From assembly GCA_964017185.1 (NCBI GenBank), contig OZ024874.1:37734721-37798720 (forward strand): a DNA stretch of 64,000 nucleotides, read 5' to 3'. Every line of letters begins with the position of its first letter. Positions within the stretch are counted from its first letter, which is position 1. Shown piece after piece: positions 9,656 through 64,000 of this stretch. The notes under the pieces were generated by a model, which saw nothing but the letters and a program-made list of their open reading frames with translations, was not told where the DNA came from and did no database searches. A program made the translations under genes and the position numbers. Source of the stretch: Rugalucina vietnamica (taxonomy: Eukaryota; Mollusca; Bivalvia; Lucinida; Lucinidae).

Positions 9656-10975
9656 AGCTCACCTGAGCCGAAGGCTCACAGGTGAGCTTATAGTATACCC
9701 ATGCTCCGGCGTCCGTCGTCGTCCGTCATCCGTCCATCGTCCACAATTTCAAAGATCTTCTTCTCTGAAACCGCTTGGCCAATCAAAGCCAAACTTCATG
9801 TGGAGCATCCTTAGGAAGGGGGAACGAAAGTTTATATAAATGGTCGAGGTCACATGACCAAGATGGCCGCCATGGCTATAAATATCTTTAAAAATCTTCT
9901 CCAGAACCAGAAGGCCTATGATCTTGAAACTTTGTGTGTAGCATCAGGGACAGGAGCTCTACAAAGTTTATATAAATCATGACCCTAGGATGACCTTGAC
10001 CTATTTTACTGCAAGGTCTACTTAGGTCGCCAATGCATTTGAATGGGAAAAAATGGTAAAATACTATTTAATAGGTAAAACTTACTGGGAATAGGCAGAT
10101 GGACAGAAGATTTATAATTATGGAAAAATTTTGCCCCCTGGGGGGTTGTCTGCCCCCGGGGCTATATACATGTAAATTTCCAAAATATTGAAACATCTTC
10201 TCCTCTGAAACCGCTTGGCCAATCGAAGCCAAACTTCATGTGGAGCGTCCTTGGGAAGAGGGAAAAAAAGTTTATATATATGGTCCAGGTCACATGACCA
10301 AGATGGCCGCCATGGCTATAAATAGAAAAAAACCTTTAAAAATCTTCTTCTCCAGAACCAGAAGGCCAATGATTTTGAAACTTGGTGTGAAGCATCAGTG
10401 ACTGGAGCTCTACAAAGTTTATATAAATCATTACCCTGGGATGACCTTGACTTATTTTACGGCAAGGTCAAGATAGGTCGCTCAAGCATTTGAATGGGGA
10501 AAAGTGTTAAAATGTCATTTGTAGGGAAAAACTTGCAGCAAATGGGCAAATGGACTTAAAATTGATGATTCTGAAAGAATTTGGACCCCAGGGGTCTGTC
10601 TGCTTCCACCCCGGGGCAATATACATGTCTATTACAGTAATATTCAAAGATCTTCTTCTCTGAAACTGCTTGGCCAATCAAATCCAAACTTTATGAGGAG
10701 CATTGTTAGGAAGTGGGAATGACAGTATATATAAATGGTCAAGGTCACATGACCAAGATGGCCGCCATGGCTATAAATAGCAAAAAACATTTATAAATCT
10801 TATTCTTAAGAATCGGAAGACCTATGACTTTGAAACTTTGCCAGAAGCATCAGTGAATGGAGCTCTACAAAGTTTGTATAATCATGACCCCCAGATGACC
10901 TTGACCTATTTTAGGGCAAGGTCAGCTAATGTCGCATATCCCAGATCTCAGGTGAGCGTTTACAGGTCCTTTGGT
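9656..10975 (+). mobile_element. Complete element 1 (family A)
   Basis: 5' end: T5 followed by AGCTCACCTGAGCC with a hairpin closing at ggctcacaggtgagct, then a cgtcc-rich microsatellite. 3' end: CCAGATCTCAGGTGAGCG followed by tttacaggtcctttggt, a stem-loop with one arm weakened. The core holds about three repeats of the ~450-bp unit (gaaaccgcttggccaatc; catgaccaagatggccgcc; atgaccttgacc). The unit contains a CCAAT phrase, a CATGTG phrase, a YY1-like AAGATGGC and extended nuclear-receptor half-sites. No protein is encoded; stops interrupt every frame and copies drift freely. Confidence 0.85.
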
Positions 10976-11175: not shown

Positions 11176-12415
11176 CCAGAGGACCATTGGTCCTGAGAAC
11201 GCTCACCTGAAGCCTGATCTTGGAGTATTAAGTCATCATGAAATGACGTTGACCTTGAATACTCACACACCTTTATTGACTTCACAAGTTGTCTGCATCT
11301 GCAAAGTTTCAGGTCTCAGGCTGCAATAGTTTCCAAACCCAGTGATTTCTGAGAAAACCATAATTTTAATTTTGATATTTAAATGACCTTGGGTCCAGGT
11401 CAACAAATGACCTTGGCCTTCATTAATTACTTACCTTCATTGACTCCATTAGTTGTCTGCATCTAGCAACTTTCAGGTCTCAGGCTGCAATAGTTTCCAA
11501 TATAACCATTGTTTTCGCCTTTTCCCATGTAAAAACCTATGTATCCAAAACTGACCTTGCCGTAAAATAGATCAAGGTCATCCAAGGGTCATCATTTCAA
11601 CAAAATATGATGGGCTGGAGTCCCAAATGCTACGTACCAAGTTTCGCGTAAATCGGCCAGCCGGTTCTGGAGAAGAAGATTTTTGAGTGGTTTTTACCAT
11701 AGTTGGGCATGGCGGCCATCTTGGTCATGTGACCCGAATTTCACGATCACACTTTTGTTCCCCCTACCTATGGACGCTCCACATAAAATTTCACTTTGAT
11801 TGACCAAGCAGTTTCAGAAAAGAAGATCTTTGAAAAGTGTCTATGGATGACAGACTGGCCAAGGTCAAGAGATGACCTTGACCTAAATTAATCACATACC
11901 TTCATCTACTCCATTAGTTGTTTGCAGGTCTCAGGCTGCAACAGTTTTCAAAAAATCCATATTTTTCACTTTTCCCATGTAAAAGCCTATGTTTCCAAAA
12001 TTGAAATTGCCGTAAAATAGGTCAAGGTCATCCTAGGGTCATCATTTGATCAAACTATGATGGGCTGGAGTCCCAAATGCTACATACCAAGTTTCATGAA
12101 AATTGGCCTGCCGGTTCTGAAAGAAGATTTTTGAGTGGTTTTTACCATATATGGGTGTGGCGGCCATCTTGGTCAGTCATGTGACCTGGATTTCGCGATC
12201 AAACTTTCGTCTCCCCTACCCATGGATGCTCCACATAAAATTTCACTTTGATTGGCCGAGCAGTTTCAGAGAAGATCTTTGAAAAGTGTGTTTGGACGAC
12301 AGACAGGCCAAGGTCAAGAGATGACCTTGACCTAAATTAATCACATACCTTCATCTACTCCATTGGTTGTTTGCATCTACCACCTTTCAGGCCTCAGGCT
12401 GCAATAGTTTTCAAA
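11176..12415 (-). mobile_element. Family A copy X, 5' end missing
   Basis: Begins with the inverted 3' terminus (CCAGAGGACCATTGGTCC, then gctcacctgaa) and carries core units with ccttgccgtaaaatagg and ggcggccatcttggtcatgt. It breaks off at gttttcaaa, where copy Y starts with the same terminus. It lacks the 5' hairpin. Confidence 0.75.
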
Positions 12416-13189
12416 CCAGAGGACCATTGGTCCTGAGAACGCTCACCTGAAGCCTGATCCTGCAGTATTAAGTCATCATGAAATGACCTTGACCTTGAAT
12501 ACTCACACACCTTTATTGAATTCATAAGTTGTCTGCATCTGCAAAGTTTCAGGTCTCAGGCTGCAATAGTTTCCAAACCCAGTGATTTATGAGAAAACCA
12601 CAATTTTAATTTTGATATTTAAATGACTTTGGGTCAAGGTCAAGAAATGACCTTGGCCTTCATTAATTACTTACCTTCATTGACTCCATTGGTTGTCTGC
12701 ATCTAGCAACTTCCAGGTCTCAGACTGCAACAGTTTCCAAAATATCCATTGTTTCCACCTTTTCCCATGTCCAAAATTGACCTTGCCGTAAAATAGGTCA
12801 AGGTCATCCTATGGTCATCATTTGATCAAACTAGGATGGGCTGGAGTCCCAAATGCTACATACCAAGTTTCGCGAAAATTGGCCTGCCGATTCTGGAGAA
12901 GAAAATTTTTGAGTGGTTTTTACCATATATGGGCGTGGCGGCCATCTTGGTAATGTGACCTGGATTTCGCGATCAAACTTTCGTCTCCCCTACCCATGGA
13001 TGCTCATAAAATTTCACTTTGATTGGCCCAGCAGTTTCAGAGAAGAAGATCTTTGAAAAGTGTGTATGGACGACAGACTGGCCAAGGTCAAGAGATGACC
13101 TTGACCTACATTAACCACATACCTTCATCTACTCCATTAGTTGTTTGCATCTACCACTTTTCAGGCCTCAGGCTGCAATAGTTTTCAAA
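12416..13189 (-). mobile_element. Family A copy Y, 5' end missing
   Basis: Same 3' terminus as copy X (CCAGAGGACCATTGGTCC) followed by the same core. It is again cut at gttttcaaa, where copy Z begins. Interior sequence is nearly the same as X, suggesting a recent shared source. Confidence 0.75.
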
Positions 13190-15181
13190 CCAGAGGACCA
13201 ATGGTCCTGTAAACGCTCACCTGAGATCTGCAGCATATACCAATAAACATGTTTGAATATTATGGTATTTAATCCCAGTGCAGGGGCAGATGAAGCCCTT
13301 GGGCCATTTTCTTTTTCAGAATAATCAATATTTTGTCCATTTGCCAATTTCCTGCTGGCTTTTTCCTTCAAAAGACATTTTAACAGTTATTCCCATTCAA
13401 ATGCATTGGCAACCCATGTTGACCTTGCCATAAACTGGGTCAAGGTCATCACAGGGTCATGATTTATATATACATTGTAGTACTTGAGCCATCGATGCTT
13501 CAAGCCAAGTTTCCTTGAAATCTGTCCACTGGTTCCGGAGAAGAAGATTTTTGAGAGATTTTTACCATATATGGGCCTGGCGGCCATCTTGGTCATGTGA
13601 CCTGGATTATTTATATAAACATTGATTACCCCATCCTTTAGATGCTTCACATAAAATTTGGCTTTGATTGGCCGAGTGGTTTCAGAGGAGCACATGTTTG
13701 AATATTATGGAGATATACAAGTATATTGCCCCGGGGTGGGGGCATATGAGCCCCTGTGATCCATTTTTTGTCAGAATCATTAATAGTCAGTCCTTTAGCC
13801 CATTTCCTGCAAGACTTTCACTTTAAATGACATTTTAAAAGTTTTCCCCATTCAAATGCATTGGTGACCTATGTTGACCTTGCCATAAAATAGGTCAAGG
13901 TCATCACAGGGTCATGATTTATATATACATTGTAGTGCTTTAGCCATCGATGTTTCATGCCAAGTTTCATTGAAATTGGTCCAACGGTTCCAGAGAAAAT
14001 GATTTTTGAAGGGTTTTTACCATATTTGGGCATGGCGGCCATCTTGGTCATGTGACCTGGATTATTTATATACACATTGGTTATCCCTTCCTATTGATGC
14101 ATTACATAAAATTTGGCTTTGATTGGTCAAGTGGTTTCAGAGGAGCAGACGTTTGAATACAGTGAAGATATACATGTATATTGCCCCGGGGTGGGGGCAC
14201 ATGAGCCCCTGGGGTCCATTTTTTTTTTCAGAATCATTAATATTCACTCCTACTGCCCATTTCCTGCAAGACTTTCACTTTAAGTGTCATTTTAAAAGTT
14301 TTCCCCATTCAAATGCATTGGCAACCTATGTTGACCTTGCCGTAAAATAGGTCAAGGTCATCACAGGGTCATGATTTATATATACATTGTAGTGCTTTAG
14401 CCATCGATGCTTCATGCCAAGTTTCATTGAAATTGGTCCACCGGTTCCAGAGAAAAAGATTTTGGAAGGGTTTTTACCATATATGGGCATGGCGGCCATC
14501 TTGGTCATGTGACCTGGATTATTTATATACACATTGGTTCCCCCTTCCCATAGATGCTTCATGTAAAATTTGGCTTTGATTGGCCAAGCGGTTTCAGAGA
14601 AGAAGATGTTTGAATATTATGATAATATACATGTATATTGCCCCGGGGTGGGGGCGGATGAGCCCCTGGGGCCCAATTTTTTTCAGAATCATTAATATTC
14701 GGTCCTACTGCTCATTTTCTGCAAGATTTTTCCTTTAAATGACAATTTAACAATTTTTCCCATTCAAATGCAAAGGCGACCTATGTTGACCTTGCCGTAA
14801 AATAGGTCAAGGTCACCGCAAGGTCATGATTTATATACACATTGTAGTACTTGAGTCATCGATGCTTCATGCCAAGTTTGGTTGAAATCGGTCCACTGGT
14901 TCCGGAGAAGAAGATTTTTGAAGGGTTTTTACCATATATGGGCATGGCGGCCATCTTGGTCATGTGACCTGGATTATTTATATACACATTGGTTCCCCCT
15001 TCCCATAGATGCTTCATGTAAAATTTGGCTTTGATTGGCCAAGCGGTTTCAGAGAAGAAGATCTTTGAAAATGGTGGACGACGGACGGACGGACGACGGA
15101 CGACGGACGGACGGACGGACGGACGCCGGATCATGGCCATCCTATAAGCTCACCTTGTGAGCCTGACGGCTCAGGTGAGCT
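13190..15181 (-). mobile_element. Family A copy Z, complete
   Basis: Runs from CCAGAGGACCAATGGTCC (inverted 3' end) through four ~450-bp core units to an ACGG/ACGACGG microsatellite (about 15074-15124) and the inverted 5' hairpin ending ggctcaggtgagct at 15181, followed by A5. Both ends are intact, so this is a full-length reference copy of about 2.0 kb. The peptide-like frames here (for example 13387-13695) repeat from unit to unit because the DNA repeats; they have no start/stop logic of a gene. Confidence 0.85.
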
Positions 15182-15390: not shown

Positions 15391-16306
15391 AGCTCACCTG
15401 ATCCGAAGGCACACAAGGCTACAAGGTATAGTAGTCGAGCCGTCGTCCATGCATCCGTTAATCCGTGCTTCACACTTTCAAAAACCAGAGGACCAATGGT
15501 CCTGTAAACGCTCACCTGAAACCGGAGATATATACCAATAAACTTGTTTGACTAGAATGGTAAGATACATGTATATAACCCCAGGGCCGGGTCAGAGCAA
15601 CCCCTGGAGTCAATTTCTTTTTGAAAACATAAAACTTCAGTCCATTTGCCAATTTACTGCAAGTTTTGCCCTTCAAATGACATTTTAACAATTTCCCCCA
15701 TTAAAATGCATGGGCGACCTAAGTTGACCTTGCCGTAAAATAGGTCAAGGTCATCCAAGGGTCACAATTTATATAAACTTTGTAGAGCTCCATTGCCTGA
15801 TGCTTCATGCCATGTTTCAAAATCATAGGCCTTCTGGTTCTGGAGAAAAAGATTTTTTAAAGGTTTTTGCTATTTATAGCTATGGCAGCCATCTTGGTCA
15901 TGTAACCATGACCATTTATATACACTTCCATTCCCACTTCCTAACAATGCTCCTCATAAAGTTTGGCTTTGATTGGCCAAGCAGTTTCAGAGAAGATCTT
16001 TGAATATCACTGTAATATACATGTATATTGCCCCGGGGTGGGGGCAGACAGATTGGGGTCCAAATTTTTTCAGAATCATCAATCTTCAGTCCATTTGCCC
16101 ATTTCCTGCAAGTTTTTCCCTACAAATGACATATTAACACTTTTCCCCATTCAAATGCATGAGCAACCTATGTTGACCTTGCCATAAAATAGGTCAAGGT
16201 CATCCCAGGGTCATGATTTATATAAACTTTGTAGAGCTTTAGTCACTGATGCTTCACACCAAGTTTCAAAATCATTGGCCTTCTGGTTCTTGAGAAGAAG
16301 ATTTTT

Positions 16307-18694
16307 AGCTCACCTGAGCCGTTAGGCTCACAAGGTGAGCTTATAGGATGGCCATGATCCGGCGTCCGTCATCCGTCCGTCCGTCGTCCACCATTTTCAA
16401 AGATCTTCTTCTCTGAAACCGCTTGGCCAATCAAAGCCAAATTTTATATGAAGCATCTATAGGAAGGGGGAACCAATGTGTTTATAAATAATCCAGGTCA
16501 CATGACCAAGATGGCCGCCATGCCCATATATGGTAAAAACCCTTCAAAATTCTTCTCCTCCGGAACCACTGGACCGATTTCAACGAAACTTGGCATGAAG
16601 CATTGGGGACTAGAGCACTACAATGTATTTATAAATTATGACCTTTGGATGACCTTGACCTATTTTACGGCAAGGTCAACATAGGTCGCCCATGCATTTG
16701 AATGGGGAAAATTGTTAAAATGTCATTTGAAAGGCAAATCTTGCAGGAAATGGGCAAATGGACTGAAGGTAGGTAATTCTGAAAAAAAATTGGACCCCAG
16801 GGGCTGGTCTGCCCCCACCCCGGGGCAATATACATGTATATTACAAAAATATACAAAGATCTTCTTCTCTGAAACCACTTGGCCAATCAAAGCCAAATTT
16901 TATATGAAGCATCTTGTGGAAGGGGGAATCAATGTGTTTATAAATAATCCAGGTCACATGACCAAGATGGCCGGCATGCCCATATATGGTAAAAACCCTT
17001 CAAAATTATTCTTCTCAGGAACCACTGGACCGATTTCAACGAAACTTGGCATGAAGTACTAAAGTACTACAATGTGTTTATAATTATGACCTTTGGATGA
17101 CCTTGACCTATTTTACGGCAAGGTCAACATAGGTCGCCCATGCATTTGAATGGGGAAAATTGTTAAAATGTCATTTGAAAGGCAAATCTTGCAGGTAATG
17201 GGGAAATGGACTGAAGGTAGGTAATTCTGAAAAAAATTTGGACCCCAGGGGCTGGTCTGCCCCCACCCTGGAGCAATATACATGTATATTACAAAAATAT
17301 TCAAAGATCTTCTTCTCTGAAACCACTTGGCCAATCAAAGGCAAATTTTATATGAAGCATCTAGTGGAAGGGGGAACCAATGTGTTTATAAATAATCCAG
17401 GTCACATGACCAAGATGGCCACCATGCCCATATATGGTAAAAACCCTTCAAAATTCTTCTTCTCCGGAACCACTGGACAGATTTCAACGAAACTTGGCAT
17501 GAAGCATCGGGGACTAGAGTACTACAATGTGTTTATAAATTATGACCTTTGGATGACCTTGACCTATTTTACGGCAAGGTCAACATCGCCCATGCATTTG
17601 AATGGGGAAAATTGTTAAAATGTCATTTGAAAGGCAAATCTCACTGGAGATGGGTAAATGGACTGAAGGTAGGTAATTCTGAAAAAAAAGATTGGACCCC
17701 AGGGGTTGGTCTGCCCCCACCCCGGGGCAATATACATGTATATTACAAAAATATTCAAAGATCTTCTTCTCTGAAACCACTTGGCCAATCAAAGCCAAAT
17801 TTTATATGAAGCATCTATGGGAAGGGGGAATCAATGTGTTTATAAATAATCCAGGTCACATGACCAAGATGGCCACAAAGCCCATATATGGTAAAAACCC
17901 TTTTAAATTCTTCTTCTCCTGAACCAATGGACCGATTTCAACAAAACTTGGCATGAAGCATTTGGGACTAAAGTACTACAATGTGTTCATAAATTATGAC
18001 CTTTGGATGACCTTGACCTATTTTACGGCAAGGTCAACATAGGTCGCCAATGCATTTGAATGGGGAAAACTTTTAAAATGTCATTTAAAGTGAAGTCGTG
18101 CAGGAAATGGGCAGTAGGACTGAATATTAATGATTCTGAAAAAAATTGGACCCCAGGGGCTCATTTGCCCCAGCCCTGGGGCATTATACATGTATATTAC
18201 CATAATATTCAAACATCTTCTCCTCTGAAACTGCTTGGCCAATCAAAGCCAAATTTCATGTGAAGCATCTATAGAATGGGGGAATCAATGTGTTTATAAA
18301 TAGTCAATGTCACATGACCAAGATGGCCGCTATGCCCATATATGGTATAAACCCTTCAAAAATCTTCTCCGGAACCGGTAGACCGATTTCGAAGAAACTT
18401 GGCATGAAGCATCGATGACTCAAGTACTACAATGTATGTATAAATCATGACCCTGTGATGACCTTGACCTATTTTAAGGCAAGGTCAACATGGGTTGCCT
18501 ATGTATTTGAATGGGTGAACTGTTAAAATGTCATTTGAAGGGGAAAACTTGTATGGACAATACATGTATATTGATTATTCTGAAAAAAAAATGGCCCAAG
18601 GGCTTCATCTGCCCCTATACTGGGACTATTTTCTATAACATTCGTATATACAGCAGATCTCAGGTGAGCGTTTACAGGACCATTGGTCCTCTGG
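16307..18694 (+). mobile_element. Element A (family A), complete, inserted in M
   Basis: 5' hairpin AGCTCACCTGAGCC at 16307, TCCG microsatellite, then a core of ~452-bp units: the phrase gaccttgacctattttacgg begins near 16651, 17099, 17555, 18009 and 18460 (spacings 448, 456, 454, 451). 3' terminus CTCAGGTGAGCGTTTACAGG, then accattggtcctctgg, ends at 18694. The target was a T tract (gattttt) in M. Confidence 0.85.
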
Positions 18695-18696
18695 TT

Positions 18697-19515
18697 AGCT
18701 CACCTGAGCCGAAGGCTCACAAGGTGAGCTTATTGTACAGTAGTCGAGCCTCCGTCCGTCCGTGCGTGCATCCGTCCGTCCTTCTGTTCACATTTTCAAA
18801 CTCAAATATCTCTTAAGACAACATGGCCGATCGTGATCAAATTTTATCTAAAGCATCATTGAGGAGGGGAAAAGGTTGCATTAGGTTTTGGGCCAGGAAC
18901 TCTGGTTTCCAAGGCAACAGATAGCTCCCATAGACTAACAATGGGAAAAACATAAAAAAATCTTCTTCTCCGAAACCACAAGTCCCAGACCTTTCATATT
19001 TTGTGTGTAGCAATGTATAGTGGTCCTCTTTATAAATCCTGCCAACCGTGCCCCTGGGGTCCGTACAGGCCCCGCCCCGGGGGCGTGATGGGGCAAAACA
19101 TAAAAAAATCTTCTTCTCCGAAACCACATGGCCCAGAGCCTTCATATTTTGTATGTAGCAATGTGTAGTGGTCCTTTTTATAAATCCTGCCAATCATGCC
19201 CCTGGGGTCAAAAATGGCCCCGCCCGGGGGGTCATTAGCTCCCATAGAGTTACAATGGGAAAAACATATTAAAAACTTCTTCTCCGAAACCACAAGGCCA
19301 TGAGCTTTCATATTTTGTTTGTAGCAATATATAGTGTTCCTCTGCCAACCGTGCCCCTGGGGTCCATACGGGCCCCGCCCCAGGGGCGTCATGGGAAAAA
19401 CTAAAAAATCTTCTTCTCCGAAACCATAAGGCCCAGAGCTTTCATATTTTGTTTGTAGCAATGTATAATGGTCCTCTTTAGAAATCCTGCCTACTGTGCC
19501 CCTGGGGTCCATACG

Positions 19516-19551
<36 letters not shown>

Positions 19552-20687
19552 TGGGTCATTAAGAAAAACATAAAAAAATCTTCTCCAAGGCCCAAAGCTT
19601 TCATATTTTGTATGTAGCAATGTGTAGTGGTCCTCTATATAAATCGTGCCAATCATGCCCCTGGGTCAAAAATGGCCCCGCCCGGGGGTCATTAGCTCCC
19701 ATAGACTTACAATGGGAAAAAAAAAAAAAAAATCTTCTCTGAAACCACAAGGCCCAGAGCTTTCATATTTTGTAGGTAGCAATGTATAGTGGTCCTCTTT
19801 ATAAATCCTGCCAACCGTGCCCCTGGGGTCCATACGGGCCCCGCCCCGGGGGCGTCATGGGAAAAACATAAAAAAATCTTCTTCTCCGAAACCACAAGTC
19901 CCAGAGCTTTCATATTTTGTTTGTAGCAATGTATAGTGTTCCTCTGTATAAATCCTGCCAACCGTGCTCCTGGGGTCCATATGGGCCCTGCCCCGGGGGC
20001 GTCATTGGAAAAACTTTAAAAAATCTTCTTCTCCGAAACCACAAGGCCCAAAGCTTTCATATTTTGTTTTTAGCAATGTATACTGGTCCTCTTTATAAAT
20101 CCTGCCAACTGTGCCCCTGGGGTCCATACGGGCCCCGCCCGGGTGGCGTCATGGGAAAAACATAAAAAAATCTTCTTCTCCAAAACCATATGGCCCAGAG
20201 CTTTCATATGTAGTGTGGACCAATGTATAATCCTCTCCTTTATAAATGCTGCCAAGGGTGCCCCTGGGGTCCATACAGGCTACGCCCCAGGCATGTCATT
20301 ATCTACCATAGACTTATAATGGAAATATATGAAAAAATCTTCTCAGCAACAGCATGACACAAAGCTTGTATATTTGATATACAACATTGTCATGTGGAGC
20401 TCTACATAAATCCTGCCAATCTTTCCCCTGGGGTCAAATATGGCCCCATCCCGGTGGTCATTATAAGACCCTAACCTTGTTAGATGATTTTTTCATGTGA
20501 ACCAAAATGGCAGAAAAGAGGATACACAATCCAGACAAGAGCTCTTCTGCTGATGTAAGTAGGGTTTCAAGGTCACATGACCAAGATGGCCACCATACCC
20601 ATATATGGTAAAAACCCCAATTACTTTGTCCAGTGACTGTACTTGTTGACTCTCAGGTGAGCGATCGTTGCCCCTGGGCTACTTGTT
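18697..20687 (+). mobile_element. Element B (family B), complete, adjoining A
   Basis: Starts two T residues after the end of A with AGCTCACCTGAGCC. Its core is about nine copies of a 135-165-bp unit (ctccgaaaccacaaggccca ... tttataaatcctgcc ... cccctggggtcc). 3' end: GACTCTCAGGTGAGCGATCG, then ttgcccctgggctacttgtt at 20687. It includes a run of 35 C at 19516-19550 that explains a glycine-run open frame on the other strand. M resumes immediately (aaaggttttt). Confidence 0.85.
19516..19550. repeat. Homopolymer C35
   Basis: Thirty-five consecutive C, at a place where sister units have a short CCCCGCCCC phrase. Either true slippage expansion or an assembly/basecalling artefact. Confidence 0.9.
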
Positions 20688-20697
20688 AAAGGTTTTT

Positions 20698-22018
20698 AAC
20701 TCACCTGAGCCGAAGGCTCACAGGTGAGCTTATAGTATAGTGGTCGAGGCGGCGTCCGTGCGTCGTCCGTCGTCGTCAACATTTTCAAACAACTTCTCCT
20801 CTGAAGCTGCCAGGCCGAATCTTTTCATATTTCACATATAGCATCTACAGGTGGGGGGAACGAATATTTGTGTTTTTTATTTCGATCGGATAAGAACTCT
20901 GGTTGCTATGGCAACTTATGCTTCCCATAGACTTATAATGGAGAAAAGTGAAAATTGCCTATTTTTGCTGTCTTGTTTGAGATATTTGAATTTTGTTTTT
21001 GCAGAAATGTTTATTGAGTAGTCCTCTACGTTTCATGTGACTTTTGTCCTTATCCTTCATTTTGATTGGTTGCAGGGGCCCCATATAGGGCAAAATTTCG
21101 AAAAACATTCAAAAATCTTCTTCTCAGAAACTGTCAAGGGGATGAAGCCTATACTTTGTATACATGTTCCTGACAGTGGCCTCTACATAATTTGTGTTTT
21201 TTATTCCAGGTGGATAAGAACTCTGGTTGCTATGGCAACTTAAAGTTTCCATAGACTTATAATGGGAAAAAGTGGAAATCGGCTATTTTTCCGCTAAAAT
21301 TGCAGACACTTGAATTTTGTTTTTGTAGAAATGTTTATTGAGTAGTGTTTGACGTTTCTTGCGAGTTTTGTCCTAATCCTTTATTTTGATTGGTTGCTGG
21401 GGCCCCATAAAGGGCAAAATTTTGAAAAAAAAAACATTCAAAAATTTTCTCCTCAGAAACTGTTAGGTGGATGAATCCTGTACTTTGTATACATGTTCCT
21501 GACAGTAGCCTCTACATAATTTGTGTTTTTTATTCCAGTCGGATAAGAACTCTGGTTGCTATGGTAACTTTAAGTTTCCATAGACTTATAATGGGAAAAG
21601 TGGAAATTAGCAATTTTTTGAAAACTATTGCAGCCTGAGATCTGAAAAGTGGTAGATGCAAACAACTAATGGATTAGATGAAGGTATATGATTAATTTAG
21701 GTCAAGGTCATCTCTTGACCTTGGCCGGTCTGTTGTCCATACACACTTTTCAAAGATTTTTTCTCTGAAACCACTTGGTCAATCAAAGCCAAATTTTATA
21801 TGGAGCATCTATAGGAAGTGGGAACCAATGTGTATATAAATAATCCAGGTCACATGACCAAGATGGCCGCCATCCCCATATATGGTAAAAACCATTAAAA
21901 TATCTTCTCCAGAACTGATGAACCGATTTCAACGAGGGCCTCATGGAAGATTAGCTTTCACATATATGTATCTGTGTGTGTATATGCTAAATGTTGTAAC
22001 CCTTGTAAAATAAAGACG

Positions 22019-22070
<52 letters not shown>

Positions 22071-28082: not shown

Positions 28083-28085
28083 AAG

Positions 28086-39134: not shown

Positions 39135-39170
39135 AAAAAATCTGTGCAACCGCATGACACAAAGCTTGTA

Positions 39171-43437: not shown

Positions 43438-43514
43438 AAAAACCAAACTACTTTGTCCAGTGACTGTAATTGTTGACTCTCAGGTAAGCAATCGTTGCCC
43501 TTGGGCTACTTGTT

Positions 43515-43896: not shown

Positions 43897-43897
43897 T

Positions 43898-45860: not shown

Positions 45861-45862
45861 TA

Positions 45863-50100: not shown

Positions 50101-53100
50101 ATGACCAAGATGGCTGCCTTGCCCATATAACTTGTGGACAGATTTCAATGAAACTTGGCTTGTAGCATCAAAGCCTAAAGTACTACAATGTGTTAATAAA
50201 TTATGATGTGATGACCTTGACCTATTTTATGGCAAGGTCAACATAGGTCGCCCATGCATTAAAATGGGAAAAATTATTTCAATGTCATTTAAAGGGCAAA
50301 ACTTGCAGGAAATTGGCATATGGACACAAGATTTAAGATTCTGAAAAATGTTGGACCCCACCCTGGGGCAATAAACATGTATATAACCATAATATTCAAA
50401 GATATTCTTCTCTGAAACTGCTTGGCCAATCAAAGTCAAATTTTATAGGAAGCATCTATATGGAAGGGGAACCAATGTGTTTATAGAAAATCCAGGTCAC
50501 ATGACCAAGAAGGCTGCCATGTCCATATATGGTAAAAGCCCTTTAAAAATCCTCTTCTTCAGAACTGCTGATTCTATTGCAACGAAACTTGACATGTAAT
50601 AAGTGCTGTCGCAGGACAGCATGCTCGACTGCTTCTAACCTTTGTCAAACATAGGGTCAAACTCGACCTGTAACCGAAAGCATTATGCTCATACATCTTT
50701 TTGCCTTGATGCTATACAGAACAAAATCACTGAACCATGACAGTTAACTATAACTTATAACTACTGAAGGTTTAAACGTCTCAATCATATTGTGCATGAA
50801 GTATCTTCATACACCAACTGAGTGCCGAGATACAAGACAAAATCAATGAACTGTGAAATAAGCTCACACTGACATATAAGTACTTTAGGGTCAAAGTTCT
50901 TATCATACTTACTCATAATATTAAAGACATATGAAAATATACCAAATGAGTGTCAAGATATAAGGCAAAATAACTGAAGCATGAAATTAGGTCACAGTGA
51001 CCCAGGAATACTTTAGGGTCAAAGGTCTTGTCATACGCAAACATAATGTGAAAGAAATATGTTTATATACCAAAAGAAAACCGAGATAAAAGGCAAAATC
51101 ACTGAACCATGTAATCAGGTCACAATTACCTAGGACTACTTTAGTGTCAAAGGTCTTGTCATACACAAACATAGTGTGAAAGAAGTATGTTCATCAACCA
51201 ATTGAGTCGAAAGATATAAGGCAAAATCACTGAACCATGAAATTAGGTCACAGTGACCTATAAGTATATTGTGGTCAAAGGTCTGGTCATACTCACTCAT
51301 AATCTGAAGGAAGCATGAAAATATAATAATTGAGTGTCAAGATGTAAGGCAAAATCACTGAAGCATGGAAAGTAGGTCAGACTGACCTATAAGTATACTG
51401 GGGTCAAAGGTCTAGTCATACTAACTCATAATCTGAAAGAAGTACGAAAATATACTAATTGAGTGTCAAGATATAAGGCGAAATCACTGAAGCATGGAAA
51501 GTAGGTCAGACTGACCTATAAGTATATTGGGGTCAAAGCTCTGGTCATACTCACTCATAATCTGAAAGAAGTATGAAAATATACTAATTGAGTGTCAAAA
51601 TATAAGGCAAAATCACTGAACTGTGAAATTAGGTCACAGTGACCTATAAGTTTATTGGGGTTAAAGGTCTGGTCATACACACTCATAATCTGAAAAAAGT
51701 ATGAAAATATACTAATTGAGTGTCAAGATATAAGGCAAAATCACTGAACCGTGAAATTAGGTCACAGTGACCTATAAGTATATTGAGGTCAAAGCTCTGG
51801 TCATACTCACTCATAATCTGAAAGAAGTATGAAAATACACTAATTGAGTGTCAAGATATAAGGCAAAATCACTGGACCATGGAAAGTAGGTCAACCAACA
51901 GTAACTGTCATGACACTAAGTTAGTGTCACTAAGTTAAAAGATGAATGACCAAGCATCTTCCTAAGTTGTTTCTATTTAGAAATAAAAAGAAAAAAATAT
52001 TTTCAGAGAGTTCTAGATTTTGATCTTTAGCCCAACCCCCCTGACTCGGACCCAAAGGTCCGATGTCAAGGAACCTAAAGTGTATGAAGTATGAATGCTT
52101 TATATATATGATAAATTGTTGTCAAGATATAGACTCTTTGCAAATGTTACACAGCAGTACATCCATTTTTTACAGTGTTCTAGTTTTTAACCACTAGCCC
52201 CACCCCTAGGCATGGACCTAGGGATCCGATGCCATGAAATGAAACTCAACCCTACAGGGTACCTAGTAGGGTCCAAGTACGAAAGCCCTCAGATAAAAGG
52301 TTTTCAAGATATAGACTTCTAGAATACTATACCAAAGAAAAGCCATTATTAATAATGATCTAGATTTTAACCTCTAGACCTACCTCCTGGCATGAACCCA
52401 GGGATCTGATGCAATGGAATGAAAGCCAACCCTCCAAGGTACCTATGGTCCAAGTTTGAACTCTCTTTGATAAGTAGTTGCCAAGATCTGGACTGCTAGA
52501 AAACTTTGACGCAGTACAGACAATTTTTTACAGTGTTCTAGATTTTAACCTCTAGCCCCACCCCAGGCATGGACCCAGGGGTCCGATAACATGTAATGAA
52601 AGCCAACCCTCCAAGGTACCTATGGTCCAAGTTTGAACCCTCTATCATTAGTAGTTGCCAAGCTGTGCACTTCTAGAAAACTTTGACGCAGTGTGACGGG
52701 AACGGGAAGGTGGACGACCGAGGTGACTACAATAGCTCTTTGCACTTCGTGCAGTCGAGCTAAAAATTCGGACTAGAGTTCAACAATGTGTAGATAAATC
52801 ATGACCCTGTGATGACCTTGACAGATTTTACAGCAAGGTTAACTGAGGTCACATATGCAGAAAACTGTTAAAAATGTCGTCATTGAAGGGAAAAACGTTC
52901 AAGACGGAAGAATGACAGAATATTTATGATTTTGAGAACGAAACTAACCCCAGGGGTCATTCTGACCCTGCCCTGGGGCTTTATTCATGTATATGACCAT
53001 TATAGGCAAACAAGTTTATTGGTATATATCTCAGGTGAGTGTTTACAGGGCCATAGAACCCTCTGGTTTAAAGAGGAGGCTTAGTCGAACAAGTCTGATC

Positions 53101-59100: not shown

Positions 59101-61346
59101 ATGGGAACTTTATAAATTAGAAAAAGAAAATCACCAACAAAATAATATATATCTGGGCTGCCAATACCCTTAAAGCCCTGAAAATAGTACCAATAGAATA
59201 CTTGTACAATGCAATATTGCCATATTGTCTTGGGTTGTCTTATAGATAAAGTAAAAACTCGAAAAATCATGAAAATAACAGAAAATTGAAGGTTGTGTTC
59301 CAACAAAATTGCCAATCTTGGTTACCAATATTTATGTTTTAAACATATCTGAACAAAGGCAATAACACATTCTCCTAGCAATTATTTGATGCCAGTTTGA
59401 GTTTTCTAGGGCTAGTGGCAGTCGAGATATATGCGGTTTTAATGGCATAGCCCGTTATTATTCAGTGATTGTTCTTTAAAAATAAATTTCTAATATTCAT
59501 ACCACAAAAATATCAAAATATTTATATATCTAGATTATTTAGATTATTATTTAGATAACAAAAATTATAGAACATTGTCCTAGCAATTAGTTGATACCAT
59601 TTTCAGCACTTTAAGGCTTTTGGTTGTCGAGATACAAGTCGTTTTGTAGGATTAGCCATTTAATTTTTTCATTTTTATTTCCTATTTCTTAAGTTTTCAT
59701 TAATATTCATGAGATTGAAGATAAGATTGTTCTTGCATCAGACTTGTGTTTTCCCTAGCATTCATTTTATACCACTTATAGCATCAAATGTTTATCTTCA
59801 GCCCTGGTACAAGTGATTTTTGTACGTATATCCCCTATTTTTTTTCTATGATTTTTCTCCAATTTCTTATTTTTTATTATTAATTTATGAATAAGCAAGT
59901 TCAATGGTTTGAATATTAGGTATTTATGTAAAATTGCAATGTCCACGCATTACTGTCAGACCAGACCAATCATAGTATATTAGCACACTATTTTGGAATA
60001 TGAGTATTTTTGTAAGAACAGCCAATTCTTTTTAGTAACATTAGGGGTGGGCGTGAAAACTGTGTTATTTTACACCATGTCAATGTGTTCATTGTTGGAC
60101 AATGTGGGCATTTATGACAAGGTTTATTACACATGCAGGACTTATATTTCCCAAATAATACCAGAAATGCATTGAAAAATACATAGCAACTATTTAGGAT
60201 CAGGTTACATCAAGTTTAGTTGTAGCATTTTATTTTGTATTGACACAGTGTGATTTTAGTTCAAACCTGGGGTGCTTTATTAGCACAAATACGGTATATT
60301 TACTACTTTAAACAAACGTAAATGGCAATCCTCAGCGCTCTGCATAACACTTTGTCTATTTACAATTGTTACCTTCACAATTAAATGAACAAATTGAGTT
60401 AAAGAAAGGAAGTGGATATGTGTAAGCATTTTCAGCATATTTGCACCAGTTTGACCTCTGACCTTTCTGTGTATAAACCTATGTGTCAATTTAATACTTG
60501 TGACAAGCTTCTGTGCCATTCTATATGAACTATCAGTTGTTTTGTAACATTTTCGTGACAAAAAAGTACAAATATTATGAAATTTTGTTGATTTTTCTTA
60601 CAAAATGCACTATGTTGACCTTTGACCTCACTGTGACCTTAAAACGCAAATTCACGCTTGGCATCCGGCCCTATGTTGTTTGCAGTAACCTAAGGAATAC
60701 TTCTAGCCTGGATGCCGAGCATTAACAAAAAATGCCATCATGAGTTATCGTAGGAATTAAGCATGGCCGACTAATAGAGCTGCTCTGAAATTTCAGACTT
60801 ACTTTCAAATTTCTGGAATTGTTCGAGGCTCAACTCATGATCTATAATTGCAGCTTTATGGCATTTTCCAATGCTTCCTTGGCTTTCTTTAGTATGCACA
60901 AGTGATAACAGCTCCATTGGTTGTACCTTTAAAGCATCTTTCCTATAAAACACACTCACACCAGTTACAATATACCGCATTTGTTCTAATTGGCTCACAT
61001 GCTCCAATAAGCGCACACACCCTGGTCATCTCCAAAACACATGTGCATAAGCGCAGTGCTCGACAATCATATTGGCGTTTTACACCAATTTTACATATAA
61101 ATACAATATAAACCACATTAAAACCTAAAAGCATCAAACACTATGTTGCATTGATTGGAACACATGAATGACATCATCATGGATATATTTGACATTTTAT
61201 TTCAGCACTTTTTGTGTTGTTTTCGTAGTGTCATAACTTTAAGTTATTTTGAAAAGATAAGCGCACCGTGCCCTAATTAGAACAAGTAGCCCAAGGGCAA
61301 TGATCGCTCACCTGAGAGTCAACAAGTACAGTCACTGGACAAATTG

Positions 61347-61380
<34 letters not shown>

Positions 61381-64000
61381 CTGATCAAAATTGATGACGC
61401 TTGAGTGGCCACAAGACTAAAAATTGATTTTTCAAACATTCAAGGGCAGCTAACTCCGCAGTCCAGGGTCGAATTTGGCTCAAAATCGAACTCATTCAAG
61501 ATGTTATGGTTATCCTTGTTATTTCCAAGAATGAAGAAGATCCGATCAAAATTGAAGGCGCCAGAGTGGCCACAATACAAAATATTGATTTTTCAAACAC
61601 TAATGGGCAGCTAACTCCACAGTCAGAGGTCGGATCTGGCCAAAATTTTAACTCATCCGAGATACTGTAGTTATCATTGTTACCTGCAAGAATGAAGAAG
61701 ATCCACTGAAAAACAAAGATGCTAGAGTGGCCACAACACAAAATATTGATTTTTCAAACACTCAAGGGCAGTTAACTATGCAGTCAGATGTCCGATCTGA
61801 TCGAAATTCGAACTCATCCGAGATATTGTAGTTATCCTTGTAACCTGCAAGAATGAAGAAGATCCACTGAAAAACAAAGATGCTAGAGTGGCCACAACAC
61901 AAAATATTAATTTTTCAAACACTCAAGGGCAGATAATTCCGCAGTCAGAGGTCGGATCTGGTCGAAATTCGAACTCATCCGAGATGTTATGGATGTCTTT
62001 GTTACTTCCAAGAAAAAAGAAGATCCAAATAAAAATGAAGGCGCTAGAGTGGCCACATCACTAAATATTGATTTTTCACAGTCAAGGCAGATAACTCTTC
62101 AGTCAAGGGTCGGATCTGGCTGAAATTCGAACTCATCCGAGATGTTATGGCTATCCTTGTTACTTCCAAGTATGAAGAAGATCCGATCAAAATTTAAGGC
62201 GCTAGAGTGGCCACAACACAAAATAATGATTTTTCAAACACTCAAGGGCAGCTAACTCCACAGTCAGAGGTCAGATCTGGCTGAAATTCGAACCCATCCG
62301 AGATATTATAGTTTTTCTTGTTACCTGCAAGAATGAAGAAGATCCAATGAAAAATAAAGGTGCTAGAGTGGCCACAACATTTTTCCCATTATAAGTCTAT
62401 GGGGATTTTTCCAGACGCTCAAGGGCAGCTAACTCCGCAACCTGAGGTCGAACCTGGCTGAAATTCAAACTCATCTGAGATATTATGATTGTCCTTCTTA
62501 TTCCCAAGAATGAAGAAGATCCAATCAAAAATGAAGTTGCTAGAGTGGCCACAACATTTTCCCCATTATAACTCAATGGGAGCTATCTGTTGCCATGGAA
62601 ACCAGAGTTCTGATCAGACATGGCCCAAAACCTAATGCAACCTTTCCCCCTCCTCAATGATGCTTCAGATAAAATTTGATTGCGATTGGTCTTGTTGTCT
62701 TAGAGATATTCAAGATTGAAAGTGTGAATGGACAGATGGATGCACGGACGCACCCACGGACGACGGCTCAACTACCATACTATAAGCTCACCTTGTGAGC
62801 CGAACAAGCCTTCGGCTCAGGTGAGCTAACAAATACGGTAATATAGAAGAATATACGTGCAAGGGTAACATGAAACCAATACCAAAATAAACCTCATTGA
62901 GTGAAATAGTGTGGTTTAGGTTAGCCATCGGGTCAATAGGTTTCTGTTTAGAATGAAATTTTCTGACTTGAAACATTGGTTTGTTTTGTTGTTCACGGGG
63001 ACTCAACTCTTAAATATGTTTATTGATGTACTTATATGCCCTATGCAAGAATACAATATACTAAATGTAATAGTTCATAGATAACAGGAAAAGTCCAATC
63101 ATGTAGTTTACCTGTAATATTCACACAGAATATAGAATAGGTGAGGTACAATGTCTACTTTCATATCAGCCAGTCTCAAGTGGGTAAACCTGTGGCAGCC
63201 AACTCTCAATAGTATCTCCTCAATAAGATCTACAATTACAAAGTTATGTATCTGCTTATAAACAAAGAGTGTCTTATACTTTTGTTTTGTGGCCCATAGG
63301 ACACAACTTGGTGGCAGTTAGGTTCAAACTTGCATGCTCTCAAACAGGAGTCTACCACTAGGCCACTATGCTCACCTTTATACAAGGAACTCTGCAGATC
63401 AAGAACTTAGGTGTGATTAAAGAGTAAACGTATGTCATTGACAGTAACTATGTAGAGTAACTATCAAGGACATTAACTATTATCTTGAAACTTAGTATGC
63501 AACATTGGGGACTAAAGCTCTGTAAAGTAGAGTTTAATGACACTGGAATGACCTTGACCTGTTTAACAGCAAGGTCAACTTTGGTTGTCTACCTTCAGAA
63601 GTAGAAGACTGTTACAAAGTCTTTAAATGGGGAAAACTAGCAGAAAATGGGCAAATGGTTTTGTGTTTTTGAAAATATTTTCAATCAAGGTTTGTTTGGC
63701 CCTTCCCATGGCAACATAAGGCCATATAATTTGGCATAAATACCAAATTTCAGGTGAGCATTTATAGGACCATTAGTTCTCTGGTTTGTTACATGTTGTA
63801 AAAATATTGTATCTTGTAGTTACCTGATGGAGGCGCACTATCAAAATCGTCTCCCTCTAAATTAAGGCGCTGTAATGAGTTCCACTTAGGCAAGTATTGG
63901 GCTATACCAGCAAAATACTCTGGATGTCTAAATGACAATGATATCACTGAACTGCTCTCTTCTGTTGTCTCATGTAGGTTATCCATTAAAATATTCCTAC
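46887..64000 (-). CDS. LRR (ribonuclease-inhibitor-type) gene, 5' part outside window
   Basis: Gene-level entry for seven exons joined here by splice sites and phase: 64000-63824, 63229-63112, 60942-60803, 54812-54456, 53621-53544, 49392-49317 and 47118-46887. Phases at the six introns are 1, 2, 1, 1, 1, 2 and match every time; no stop occurs until TAG at 46887-46889. The product is about 350 residues in this window, with repeated LxxLxL segments (LQRLNLEGDDF, FTHLRLADM, VKDLCLSRINL, LNTLKLVDCCI, LTVLSLSSNQL, LQELDLSSCNI, LRKLNISGMIL) spaced as in RNase-inhibitor/NLR-type LRRs. Such repeats bind proteins or ligands. Because no NACHT, CARD, death or TIR domain is visible, NLR is possible but unproven. 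Introns of 0.5-6 kb are filled with transposons. Additional exons could be missed where the phase would also allow it. Confidence 0.7.
47119..48010. other. Intron with two strong hairpins
   Basis: Intron of the LRR gene. It contains a hairpin near 47525-47568 (catgttcaaa/tttgaacatg) and a cruciform at 47641-47744 (separate entry). Nothing else recognised. Confidence 0.5.
47641..47744. repeat. 104-bp near-perfect cruciform
   Basis: Outer arms 47641-47655 and 47730-47744 (cattcattaacattc and its inverse) are perfect over 15 bp. Inner arms 47668-47683 and 47701-47716 (ggggagtgttgaaaac and its inverse) are perfect over 16 bp. Likely a tiny MITE or the ends of one. No clear target duplication. 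Confidence 0.75.
48012..49240 (-). mobile_element. Decayed family-A copy in LRR intron
   Basis: Left: aatggtccttagaatgctca, then cctgagat (decayed inverted 3' end). Right: ataagatcacctataagctc, then aggtgtgcta (decayed 5' hairpin). The core has two to three units with ggcggccatcttggtcatgt and aaaataggtcaagg. More substitutions than the copies at 13-43 kb, so an older insertion. Confidence 0.65.
49317..49392 (-). CDS. LRR gene exon (LQELDL)
   Basis: 76 nt. Acceptor TTTCCAG before 49392; donor AAG-GTACAG after 49317. Adds GT to the G left upstream (Gly) and reads GAQFLSSLLVTNRCRRLQEL, then DL, leaving AG. The GxxxLxxxLxxxxxLxxLxLS pattern is a textbook RNase-inhibitor LRR. The donor GTACAG is less usual than GTAAGT; the phase match to both neighbours supports it. 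Confidence 0.7.
49393..49915. other. LRR intron, no recognised repeat
   Basis: Single-copy-looking sequence with a C-rich stretch at 49863-49883. Nothing further supported. Confidence 0.4.
50700..51890. repeat. 129-bp tandem array, about 9 copies
   Basis: The phrase ataaggcaaaatcactga recurs at near-constant 129-bp spacing (about 51340, 51469, 51598, 51727 and 51856), with earlier, more diverged copies at about 50826, 50953, 51081 and 51211. Each unit has a fixed order: gcaaaatcactgaa, the AGGTCANNNTGACCT palindrome, ataagtatattggggtcaaa, ctggtcatactcactcataa, gaaaatatactaattgagtg. The central copies are the most uniform. Confidence 0.9.
50989..51773. promoter_or_regulatory. Five perfect ERE-type palindromes in register
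   Basis: AGGTCANNNTGACCT (inverted AGGTCA half-sites, 3-bp spacer) occurs perfectly at 51245-51259, 51374-51388, 51503-51517, 51631-51645 and 51759-51773, and with a single end mismatch at 50989-51003. Spacers are CAG or GAC. AGGTCACAGTGACCT is the consensus estrogen-response element as in Xenopus vitellogenin A2. Whether any receptor binds here is unknown. Confidence 0.85.
53067..53543. other. LRR intron between element I and exon
   Basis: AT-rich, no recognised element. The + frame at 53352-53534 has no family resemblance. Confidence 0.4.
53544..53621 (-). CDS. LRR gene exon (LTVLSLSSNQL)
   Basis: 78 nt. Acceptor CATTTTAG before 53621; donor CTTG-GTAAGC after 53544. The incoming TG completes G to Val. 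Reads MKRDLIEVIQNHPSLTVLSL, then SSNQL, leaving G. A full LRR consensus (LxxLxLSxNxL). Flanking phases are 1 and 1. Confidence 0.8.
53666..54018. mobile_element. 353-bp TA-flanked MITE in LRR intron
   Basis: Ends CCGTAAAAATTCTATTAAAC and the inverse of CCGTAAAAATTCTATTAAAT; TA at 53664-53665 and 54019-54020. Further inner inverted homology (cgcccgagtgttta / gagtgtgggcattta). Non-coding. Superfamily undetermined. Confidence 0.8.
54456..54812 (-). CDS. LRR gene exon (largest)
   Basis: 357 nt. Acceptor TCTCTTGCAG before 54812; donor CTGG-GTATGT after 54456. AT joins the upstream A (Asn). Encodes about 118 residues with four LRR-like turns: VKDLCLSRINLDQLGF, CLTNIRLVYIDW, VLKSFSMCKLLTKSSVEAL and LNTLKLVDCCIPGEL. 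Tryptophan-rich insert DWNSTCTNDSVLEQWPDLW between turns. The longest clean coding stretch of the window. Confidence 0.8.
54813..55333. other. LRR intron, unassigned
   Basis: No element recognised. The - frame at 55198-55527 overlaps the inverted-repeat block and has no family resemblance. Confidence 0.4.
55895..56410. repeat. Motif block of ACGCCGTG / GGCGTT
   Basis: GC-rich island made of degenerate copies of acgccgtg and tcacggcgt in both orientations, opening with cctgtcacaccagggcggcg. The opening resembles the TIR of the 4165-4836 element (cctgtcacac), suggesting a related foldback transposon with a different filler motif. Open frames at 56066-56469 arise from the motif. Confidence 0.65.
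56411..56754. other. AT-rich spacer between motif blocks
   Basis: Contains a short AT dinucleotide run (56560-56572). Nothing else recognised. Confidence 0.4.
56755..57590. repeat. Motif blocks of ACGCCGTG and CGTATG/GTACGCTG
   Basis: 56760-56930 continues the acgccgtg motif. 56995-57130 and 57350-57570 are built from acgtatg, gtacgctg and cttatgc phrases, also in both orientations, ending gtatccctttaaagggcc with a central TTTAAA. A + strand piece at 57140-57330 between them has atgaaccattagatgttcat-type reiteration. Probably two or three related foldback elements, partly nested. Confidence 0.55.
59330..59830. repeat. Diverged tandem units (~180 bp)
   Basis: The order cctagca-att-ttgat-cca, ttctagggctagtgg, gtcgagatatatgc recurs near 59373, 59578 and 59752 with many changes. 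Old tandem repeats in the right arm of the inverted-repeat block. Confidence 0.5.
60803..60942 (-). CDS. LRR gene exon (linker)
   Basis: 140 nt. Acceptor TTTTATAG before 60942; donor GAAA-GTAAGT after 60803 (perfect consensus). The first G completes AG to Arg. Reads KDALKVQPMELLSLVHTKES ... HELSLEQFQKFE, leaving A. LRR character is weak here, so it may be a linker or a degenerate repeat; the splice sites and phase are its main support. Confidence 0.65.
61281..62827 (-). mobile_element. Element R (family B), complete, in LRR intron
   Basis: Left: inverted 3' end aacaagtagcccaagggcaa, then tgatcgctcacctgagagtc. Right: inverted 5' end tataagctcaccttgtgagc, then cttcggctcaggtgagct, with an 8-bp gaacaagc interrupting the hairpin loop. 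Core: eight copies of a 161-bp unit. 62575-62760 matches the 5' region of elements B and D (gttgccatggaaaccagagt), which assigns R to family B. Contains T29 at 61347-61375. Confidence 0.85.
61403..62560. repeat. 161-bp tandem array, 8 copies
   Basis: The phrase gagtggccaca starts at 61403, 61564, 61725, 61886, 62047, 62205, 62366 and 62543 (spacings 161, 161, 161, 161, 158, 161, 177). Each unit also has gggcagctaactccgcagtc and aactcatccgagat. It forms the core of element R. Confidence 0.9.
62828..63111. other. LRR intron, no recognised repeat
   Basis: Short intron stretch between element R and the next exon; nothing recognised. Confidence 0.4.
63112..63229 (-). CDS. LRR gene exon (FTHLRLADM)
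   Basis: 118 nt. Acceptor ATTGTAG before 63229; donor ACAG-GTAAAC after 63112. AT joins the upstream G (Asp). Reads LIEEILLRVGCHRFTHLRLA, then DMKVDIVPHLFYILCEYY, leaving AG. LxxLxL pattern with helix-type flanks. Phases 1 in, 2 out. Confidence 0.75.
63465..63786 (+). mobile_element. Old family-A fragment in LRR intron
   Basis: Decayed core (atgaccttgacctgtttaac, ggggaaaactagcagaaaat) and a recognisable 3' end TTCAGGTGAGCATTTATAGG, then accattagttctctggttt. The 5' end is absent. It sits 37 bp from the donor of the 63824 exon. Confidence 0.65.
63824..64000 (-). CDS. LRR gene exon, continues past window
   Basis: Open from the window edge to the donor TCAG-GTAACT. Reads NILMDNLHETTEESSSVISL, then PKWNSLQRLNLEGDDFDSAP, leaving G. 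LQRLNLEGDDF is an LRR strand. The Met within it is not taken as the start because the frame stays open to the edge. Confidence 0.7.

Follow-up and report, generated by a model that had tools for sequence, protein, structure and literature searches.

Elements and their ends in the window

The window, meaning the whole 64-kb stretch of DNA analysed here (G000:C6:37734721-37798720), belongs to its own 1.09-Gb genome assembly of 47 contigs, and it holds repeated elements of the types A, B, G, and E with tandem cores of ~455, 446-462, 147, 324, 161, 191, 146, 128, and 177 bp. Several of these units are nested or composite and do not represent separate copies. At its left side, an A-type element (9656..10974, plus strand) has a 5' end, a CGTC microsatellite, a ~455-bp core (D), and a decayed 3' end, and is followed by a composite on the minus strand (11176..15181) with a 5' end at 15181 and three A-type 3' ends at 13190, 12416, and 11176. 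The 5' part of an outermost element with the A 5' end lies at 15391..15484 (plus), with an F-like core that seems to pick up again past 23307. The stretch between (15485..23307, minus) is an A-type element with core D, split by later T-tract insertions at 16307-18694, 18697-20687, and 20698-22634, all on the plus strand. The first of these, an A element, has inserted at GAAGATTTTT^AAAGG within a core unit; the second, head-to-tail with it, is a B element with a ~147-bp F core, the first 690 bases of which align at 75% to the coding parent described below; and the third, nested at GGTTTTT^TC as judged by eye, is a B element whose B 3' end is preceded by a decayed A-type 3' end inside the element (22462-22495). 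At 21940-22070, a D core unit contains a short insert that carries a (TTAC)13 tail and resembles a LINE/SINE 3' end. Further to the right, A elements on the minus strand occupy 23846..25597, nested in a T tract of the F core with empty sites in sister units, and 25990..28082, with a C core of 446-462 bp. E copy 1 (28086..29903, minus) starts with TTATTGTCCCCCG, followed by a GTCC microsatellite, a 191-bp core, and a 3' CTAGTT of another lineage's type, and within it lies a ~0.9-kb stretch (28211-29125) with long inverted ends (TACGAGGGTGGGTCAGAAAGTTCTG...) that by eye has the look of a mariner-type MITE. E copy 2 (33399..35294, minus), with its 5' TATGCCCC at ~35294 and its 3' CTAGTT at 33404, is interrupted by an A element that has a 5' end at 35002 and lacks a 3' end. 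Minus-strand A elements continue at 35594..37124 (nested in an F-core T tract), 37290..39134 (nested at ATATATGAAAAAATC, with the 5' base decayed), and 39606..43437 (core D), the last split, as judged by eye, by ~1.8 kb of other DNA at 40580-42384, which has inverted ends (CTCGAAG...CTTCGAG) and is possibly another DNA transposon. A B-type 3' end (43493..43514, plus) adjoins the 5' end at 43437. G element 1 lies at 43895..44867 (minus), and G element 2 (50596..52761, minus), with cores of 128 bp and 177 bp, is nested in an A element (49916..53066, plus). The B element at 61281..62827 (minus) has a 161-bp core, and its 300-base flanks are unrepeated within the window.

Chance is excluded for the A/B repeats, as the window has 50 matches to the 12-mer AGCTCACCTGAG at up to 2 mismatches where 2.7 are expected, and the 16-mer TTAGCTCACCTGAGCC has 31,715 exact copies in the genome compared to 1 for the reversed pattern. 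Both types start with AGCTCACCTGAGCCGAAGGCTCAC.AGGTGAGCTTAT; the 3' end of A is TCAGGTGAGC followed by 25 bp that include a palindrome and finish in CTGG, and that of B is TCAGGTGAGCGATCGTTGCCCYTGGGCTACTTG, with 1,410 exact copies of the 34-bp B end genome-wide. Among the 17 A/B-type 5' ends listed, 13 are at least 95% identical to the first 45 bases of the coding parent over the aligned span, 16 are preceded by at least two Ts, and in 12 a run of the CGTC/GTCC type, at least 9 bases long by the pattern set in the analysis, comes next, in line with the microsatellite that the initial annotation had placed behind the 5' hairpin. In A and B alike, TCAGGTGAGC lies ~25 bp inward of the 3' end and is followed by the palindrome, which reads GGACCAWTGGTCC in A-type ends and GCCCYTGGGC in those of B. 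CTGG is kept in 13 of the 17 A-type 3' ends listed and the exact palindrome in nine, the remainder being decayed, and GCCCYTGGGC is present in all four B 3' ends. Folds of the ends showed the 5' inverted repeat and the 3' palindrome, and in some 3' ends the fold predicted with RNA parameters pairs the subterminal inverted repeat (subTIR) and not the palindrome.

The initial annotation had seen four families built to one plan of 5' hairpin, tandem core, subterminal inverted motif, and 3' stem-loop. The order of parts held for A, B, and G, but the division into four separate families did not, as A and B have the 11-bp subterminal repeat GCTCACCTGAG in common at both ends. Under the rule for subterminal repeats given in the excerpted text of PMC4067079, 11 identical bases define one family, and A and B thus class, on their letters, as one family with two 3' subfamilies. 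G1 carries TAGCTCGCCTG at both ends together with the palindrome CTGTCCTGCGACAG, so that a subTIR of at least 11 bp is found in A, B, and G1, and the return of the inverted 5' motif shortly before a 3' stem-loop, ~25 bp inside the end in the case of TCAGGTGAGC, is as originally described for A, B, and G. Nor is E supported as a single family with matched ends. The E 5' motif occurs once in the window compared to 1.31 expected with two mismatches allowed, i.e. not above chance, and the one line of evidence that it is a real repeat is its 26-base 5' hairpin, which has 719 exact copies in the genome. In E copy 1, the 5' end TTATTGTCCCCCG at 29903 has the motif TTGTCCCCCG and the 3' end at 28091 has the inverse of TATGCCC.CAACT; as first paired, the two ends thus have different subterminal motifs and no 11-bp subTIR. 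E copy 2, which starts with TATGCCCC and was pieced together across the A element interrupting it, has the inverse of TATGCCCCCAACT as its 3' motif, and its two ends agree over 8 bases only. Copy 1 has a 5' end similar to the 3' motif AAAAAGGGGGGAGACA of a Rep gene lineage (c39/c41, see below) and a 3' end of the other motif type, and this single copy may therefore be a hybrid.

Searches with the end patterns found none in a viral contig collection and a single bacterial 20-mer, taken as chance, in other genome contigs, and the matches to the motif letters in literature full text concerned other subjects, as judged by title and the start of the abstract.

Coding Helentrons bounded by the same ends

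No Rep or helicase domain was found in the 20 window open reading frames scanned, which gave four sub-threshold matches to Pfam. A search of the genome for the Rep domain PF14214 gave 409 candidates, 150 of which were scored, many of them in open frames of at least 2500 aa. We read 30 loci from this search, twelve copies being followed over longer stretches. With 188 bits, the strongest match to PF14214 (L032, G000:C10:56656966) formed its own lineage at the clustering thresholds used. Two related copies, c59 (15,301 bp; C1:65717356-65732656, minus) and c16_32 (15,173 bp; C16), are 98.7% identical in the block that holds the gene end, 97.1% in the tail, and, in the four upstream blocks that match best, 93.5-95.9%. 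Their homology begins at AGCTCACCTGAGCCGAAGGCTCACAGGTGAGC with a CGTC microsatellite (TTTTT, then AGCTCACCTGAGCCGAAGGCTCACAGGTGAGCTTATAGGAT...CGTCGTCC) and ends at CTCAGGTGAGCTACAGGACCAA.GGTCCTCTAG followed by T (in full, CTCAGGTGAGC-TACAGGACCAA.GGTCCTCTAG, then T); no match was found between them beyond the 3' end, and beyond the 5' end there is a single 65-bp match (77%) at least 1.4 kb outside. This shows that the A/B 5' end and the A-type 3' end bound a coding RepHel Helentron in two copies.

The gene of c59 is one open reading frame of 2738 aa, which was scanned for Pfam domains in three pieces. It matches Herpes_teg_N, an OTU-like peptidase model (E = 5e-9), DUF6570 (3e-22), Helitron_like_N (the Rep domain, 1e-27), and PIF1 (5e-18), and at its C-terminus there are weak matches below the Pfam cut-offs to Exo_endo_phos (0.0037) and Exo_endo_phos_2 (0.0016). 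In the published Helentron layout, Rep comes first, then helicase, then endonuclease (PMC4067079). The Herpes_teg_N match, in the first piece (L064), lies ~790 residues ahead of the Rep match.

Ends of the window's types were also found on other Rep copies. A third copy, c58, is 86% identical to c59 in DNA around Rep and ends in CTCAGGTGAGCGTTTGCAGGACCATTGGTCCTCTGG followed by TTTTT, which differs from the window's A end by one base (97.5% over 40 bases); the 2.2 kb read contained no HINE 5' end and matched the window only at this 3' end. The c49/c48 lineage has the subTIR TATGCCCCCAACT/AGTTGGGGGCA, TTTTT followed by TATGCCCCCAACTTTGAAAAAGTTGG at the 5' break of homology, and, after it, a 316-317-bp unit repeated 3.2 and 3.3 times; c49 ends in AGTTGGGGGCACAGTGTTTTACAAACACATATTTCTAG followed by TT, the E type of 3' end, which was read in this one copy. 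For G, a Rep copy on C9 has a G-type 3' end 9.0 kb downstream (G000:C9:50503071-50512069), where 424 bp match the window G at 91.7%, and no G 5' motif was found in the 2.3 kb read before that end. The C9 copy may thus be the coding partner of G, the stretch read around the G-type end being separated from the Rep match by ~6.1 kb. No coding element with the B 3' end was found among the Rep copies read, and no known end in the stretches read of the lineages c44/c43 and c35. The c39/c41 lineage (L082/L077, L083) has the 3' end AAAAAGGGGGGAGACATCTG(T)nCCTAGAAAAACAAATTCTAG followed by TTT, with a motif that resembles the E 5' end. The search for Rep-helicase genes with the same termini, which had been proposed as a check, was thus successful for the A/B 5' end with the A-type 3' end and, in one copy, for the E type of 3' end; it was suggestive for G, and came up empty for B.

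Target sites and terminal Ts

For a paralogous comparison of filled and empty sites, we joined the flanks of 11 window sites, including the double insertion 16307/18697 as a whole and in both its parts. Clear empty sister units were found at four of the 11 sites and two weak ones at one, and at the other six there were none, or other junctions only, one of which (20698) was then compared by eye. At site 25597, the filled tract is T7+2 and the empty tract T7 in seven of 14 rows (T4-T15 in the others); at 37124, it is T6+3 compared to mostly 6-7; at 39134, T6+2 compared to 6 in the best empty row; at the double insertion, T5+2+2 compared to 5 in most empty rows; and at 20698, T5+3 compared to 6 in the unit at 36431. 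Each element therefore comes with a gain of ~2 Ts, blurred where units vary. The genome offers a larger sample in a T tract of the C core, the intact form of which occurs 8,543 times, mostly as T6 in the 100 places listed, along with 378 left and 169 right junctions to an A element. When the first 40 of the right junctions were compared with 100 listed left junctions, 24 had a same-strand partner no more than 6.6 kb away. Of these pairs, 22 were T5 + T3; insert sizes cluster, so that the pairs do not each stand for a separate event. The target rule of these elements can be measured from thousands of filled and empty sites.

The flanks of the exact ends are nearly fixed as TT before the element and a single T after it. 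Before 33,377 5' ends, TT was found 31,715 times, a T preceded by another base 524 times, and a base other than T 1,138 times; the third base upstream was T in 19 of 30 loci and another base in 11. After 14,222 exact A 3' ends, the next base was T in 14,045, with TT in 11,169 and T followed by another base in 2,876, and was not T in 177. Because of these flanks and the gain of two Ts, the data are best read, in the simplest way, as one T carried at each end, with joining behind a target T and a T on the far side preferred but not required. Two other partitions of the Ts were tried and rejected, namely that TT is part of the 3' end, as the second T is present in only 11,169 of 14,045, and that the 5' end includes both Ts and the target is strictly T^T, as the third upstream base is not T in 11 of 30. 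Empty sites and genome flank counts agree with the insertion into T tracts that had been noted at the outset, and neither revealed a fixed target duplication.

The two-T gain could also mean that insertion duplicates a 2-bp TT target, and the window sites, which hold ~2 more Ts than the commonest empty form, and the C-core tract, mostly T6 when empty and T5 + T3 in 22 of 24 paired filled sites, would fit this. A fixed copy, however, cannot give both TT in 95% of left flanks and T followed by another base after 20% of exact 3' ends, and individual elements break the rule as well, with TTTTT on the left and TG on the right of the coding copy c59, and TTTTT and TA around the window element at 43437. 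A fixed TT duplication was rejected from these 3' flank counts set against the 5' flank counts, and we regard the idea as improbable overall. The same counts bear on a DDE-transposon origin. MITEs of DDE transposons have terminal inverted repeats and a fixed target duplication. If a DDE transposase had mobilised the elements as MITEs or foldback elements, their inverted motifs would be eroded terminal inverted repeats, and the motifs and hairpins at both ends and the high copy number could be accommodated. But only one copy of the inverted repeat is terminal, the other lying ~25 bp inside its end with a separate 3' palindrome behind it, the same ends bound a Rep-PIF1 gene, and the right flank is T followed by another base in 2,876 of 14,222 cases compared to TT in 95% of left flanks, with no fixed duplication. 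The search for a DDE transposase likewise found none in the 20 window open reading frames or in the c59 gene scanned, and we consider this origin very improbable.

Class, cores, and composites

We interpret the A, B, and G units, and in a mixed way E, as HINEs (non-autonomous Helentrons) that are moved in trans by the Rep-helicase-endonuclease proteins of related Helentrons in this genome, a reading to which we give a probability of about 0.93. The initial assignment to non-autonomous elements derived from Helitron2/Helentron was upheld by the A-type termini that bound a RepHel element in two copies, and further by the A end with one base changed on c58 and the E-type 3' end on c49. Canonical Helitrons have a 5' TC and a 3' CTRR and insert between A and T. 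Here, the 5' end is (T)AGCTC with T flanks on both sides, and the 3' terminal letters CTGG, CTTG, CTAG, and CTCTT are all present among the families; CTGG and CTAG fit CTRR, as had been pointed out, but CTTG and CTCTT do not, so CTRR is no rule. The HINE plan has been published in PMC4067079 and PMC7492417. In PMC4067079 (Thomas et al. 2014), HINE/DINE-1 elements (Helentron-associated interspersed elements) are described with subTIRs, a 5' inverted repeat, a microsatellite, optional central tandem repeats, a 3' palindrome, a T-rich target without duplication, and a larger partner with Rep, helicase, and endonuclease (OTU-like in some), all of which the elements of this genome resemble, the endonuclease being seen in weak matches. 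The sequences differ, and the terminal Ts, the distribution of which was left open in that text, can be counted here at genome scale. The bivalve Cg_HINE/Pearl-type elements (CvA/CvE/CvG, MgE, and DTC84; excerpts of PMC7492417 and PMC11136912) are alike in plan, sharing the order of modules, GTCC/GTCY-type microsatellites, satellite-like cores in one direction, and varied cores behind related ends. Helitrons are reported to make up ~9-13% of oyster genomes, many with satellite-like repeats (excerpts of PMC11136912). In the oyster study, as excerpted, none of 10 coding Helentrons could be related to Cg_HINEs, and the origin of the repeats was left open (PMC7492417); in this genome, in contrast, coding elements match the HINEs in their ends and in one core. 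The available portions of PMC11136912, PMC8268682, and PMC10294476 report no link between HINEs and a coding partner. The link is made here by a gene-carrying parent with ends of the same kind and one shared core from elsewhere in this genome, and such partners, with long open frames, like ends, and a common core, make the questions of the partner and of the repeat origin directly testable.

HINEs would, under this interpretation, be shortened derivatives, with cores amplified from or exchanged with coding Helentrons. Rep would nick the element where the 5' subterminal hairpin marks its end, replication or strand transfer would proceed to the 3' subterminal repeat and palindrome acting as terminator, and a single-stranded intermediate would join behind a T in a T tract without duplication, carrying one T per end. 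If the terminator were missed, the copy would continue to the next downstream 3' end and yield a composite in which a single 5' end is combined with several 3' ends.

The cores were compared with c59, bases 1-721 of which align at 75% to window 18697-19386, from the hairpin through the microsatellite and into the F core. An F-type array of 165-bp units lies upstream of the gene, with 11.1 copies in c59 and 5.2 + 1.9 in c16_32, and the 3' tail of c59 holds about half a D unit (230 bp, 73%) and F-like pieces, with no tandem array found by TRF. The C core shares only short stretches with c59, the 324-bp core has 60-70 bp in common with its F region, and the 161-bp core has no match, so not every core derives from a c59-type parent. 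BLAST of c59 against the window gave 201 matches, of which 130 run in the direction of the host HINE and five, all poly-T, against it, with 66 outside the element list and unscored. Core identity between parent and window is only ~67-88% among the matches listed, and c59 is therefore a relative and not the direct source of the window copies. Since the similarity to c59 runs from base 1 into the array, the F end and core appear to be inherited together, travelling as one in coding and non-coding elements. Leader arrays are present with 165-bp units in the c59 lineage and 316-bp units in another, and the number of units differs between close c59-lineage copies. We tentatively propose, at slightly under even odds, that coding Helentrons make satellite DNA by rolling-circle expansion in the leader and that derivatives export these arrays, with one T carried at each end. 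If this is true, shortened derivatives spread leader arrays to tens of thousands of sites.

In the composite at 15181-11176, a single 5' end goes with three A-type 3' ends, all on the same strand, and the 200-odd bases flanking the composite on each side are non-core DNA without a second window match. Similar runs are present at 20698-22634 (a decayed A 3' end and a B 3' end) and at G000:C1:57742313-57744022 (A, A, and B 3' ends, the 5' side being unread). The structure fits bypass of the 3' terminator, since a start at the inner 5' end, a missed inner 3' end, and a stop at the outer 3' end would give exactly this arrangement. Experiments have shown such bypass in Helraiser (PMC4778049), a canonical Helitron which along with Helibat is alike in having a 3' hairpin as a bypassable terminator that yields new 3' ends; unlike these, the window elements sit behind T, without a 5' TC or an A^T target, and the coding parent has endonuclease-like and OTU-like parts.

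Host DNA could account for the cores in a different way, with HINEs and coding elements each capturing them independently from host satellites. Unrelated cores behind an identical 5' end speak for this, as does the filler-DNA model cited for insect Helitrons in the excerpted text of PMC7492417, but the F-core similarity to c59 starts at element base 1 and passes through hairpin and microsatellite into the array, and we find independent capture the unlikelier account. Composites, for their part, may have arisen by nested insertion followed by deletion of the 5' half of the outer element. A elements do nest in C elements, as the inner junction type GGTCCTCTGGTTTGAAAACTATTGCAGCC, with 169 genome occurrences, often has a matching left junction. 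A C-core/A 5' junction accompanied 24 of the 40 listed A 3'/C-core junctions (same strand, up to 6.6 kb), which makes simple nesting a common event at this T tract, and the clustered insert sizes indicate that some composites have been amplified; the 16 unpaired junctions are candidates only, as the exact left pattern misses mutated junctions. However, the non-core, window-unrepeated DNA on both sides of 15181-11176 is what transposition from an inner 5' end to an outer 3' end would leave, and a similar run of A, A, and B 3' ends recurs at G000:C1:57742313-57744022, which makes nesting with deletion a somewhat doubtful explanation here. A separate arrangement was seen at 46600-46700, where an inverted A-type 5' end lies directly within an A-type 3' end, head-to-head, with both ends decayed.
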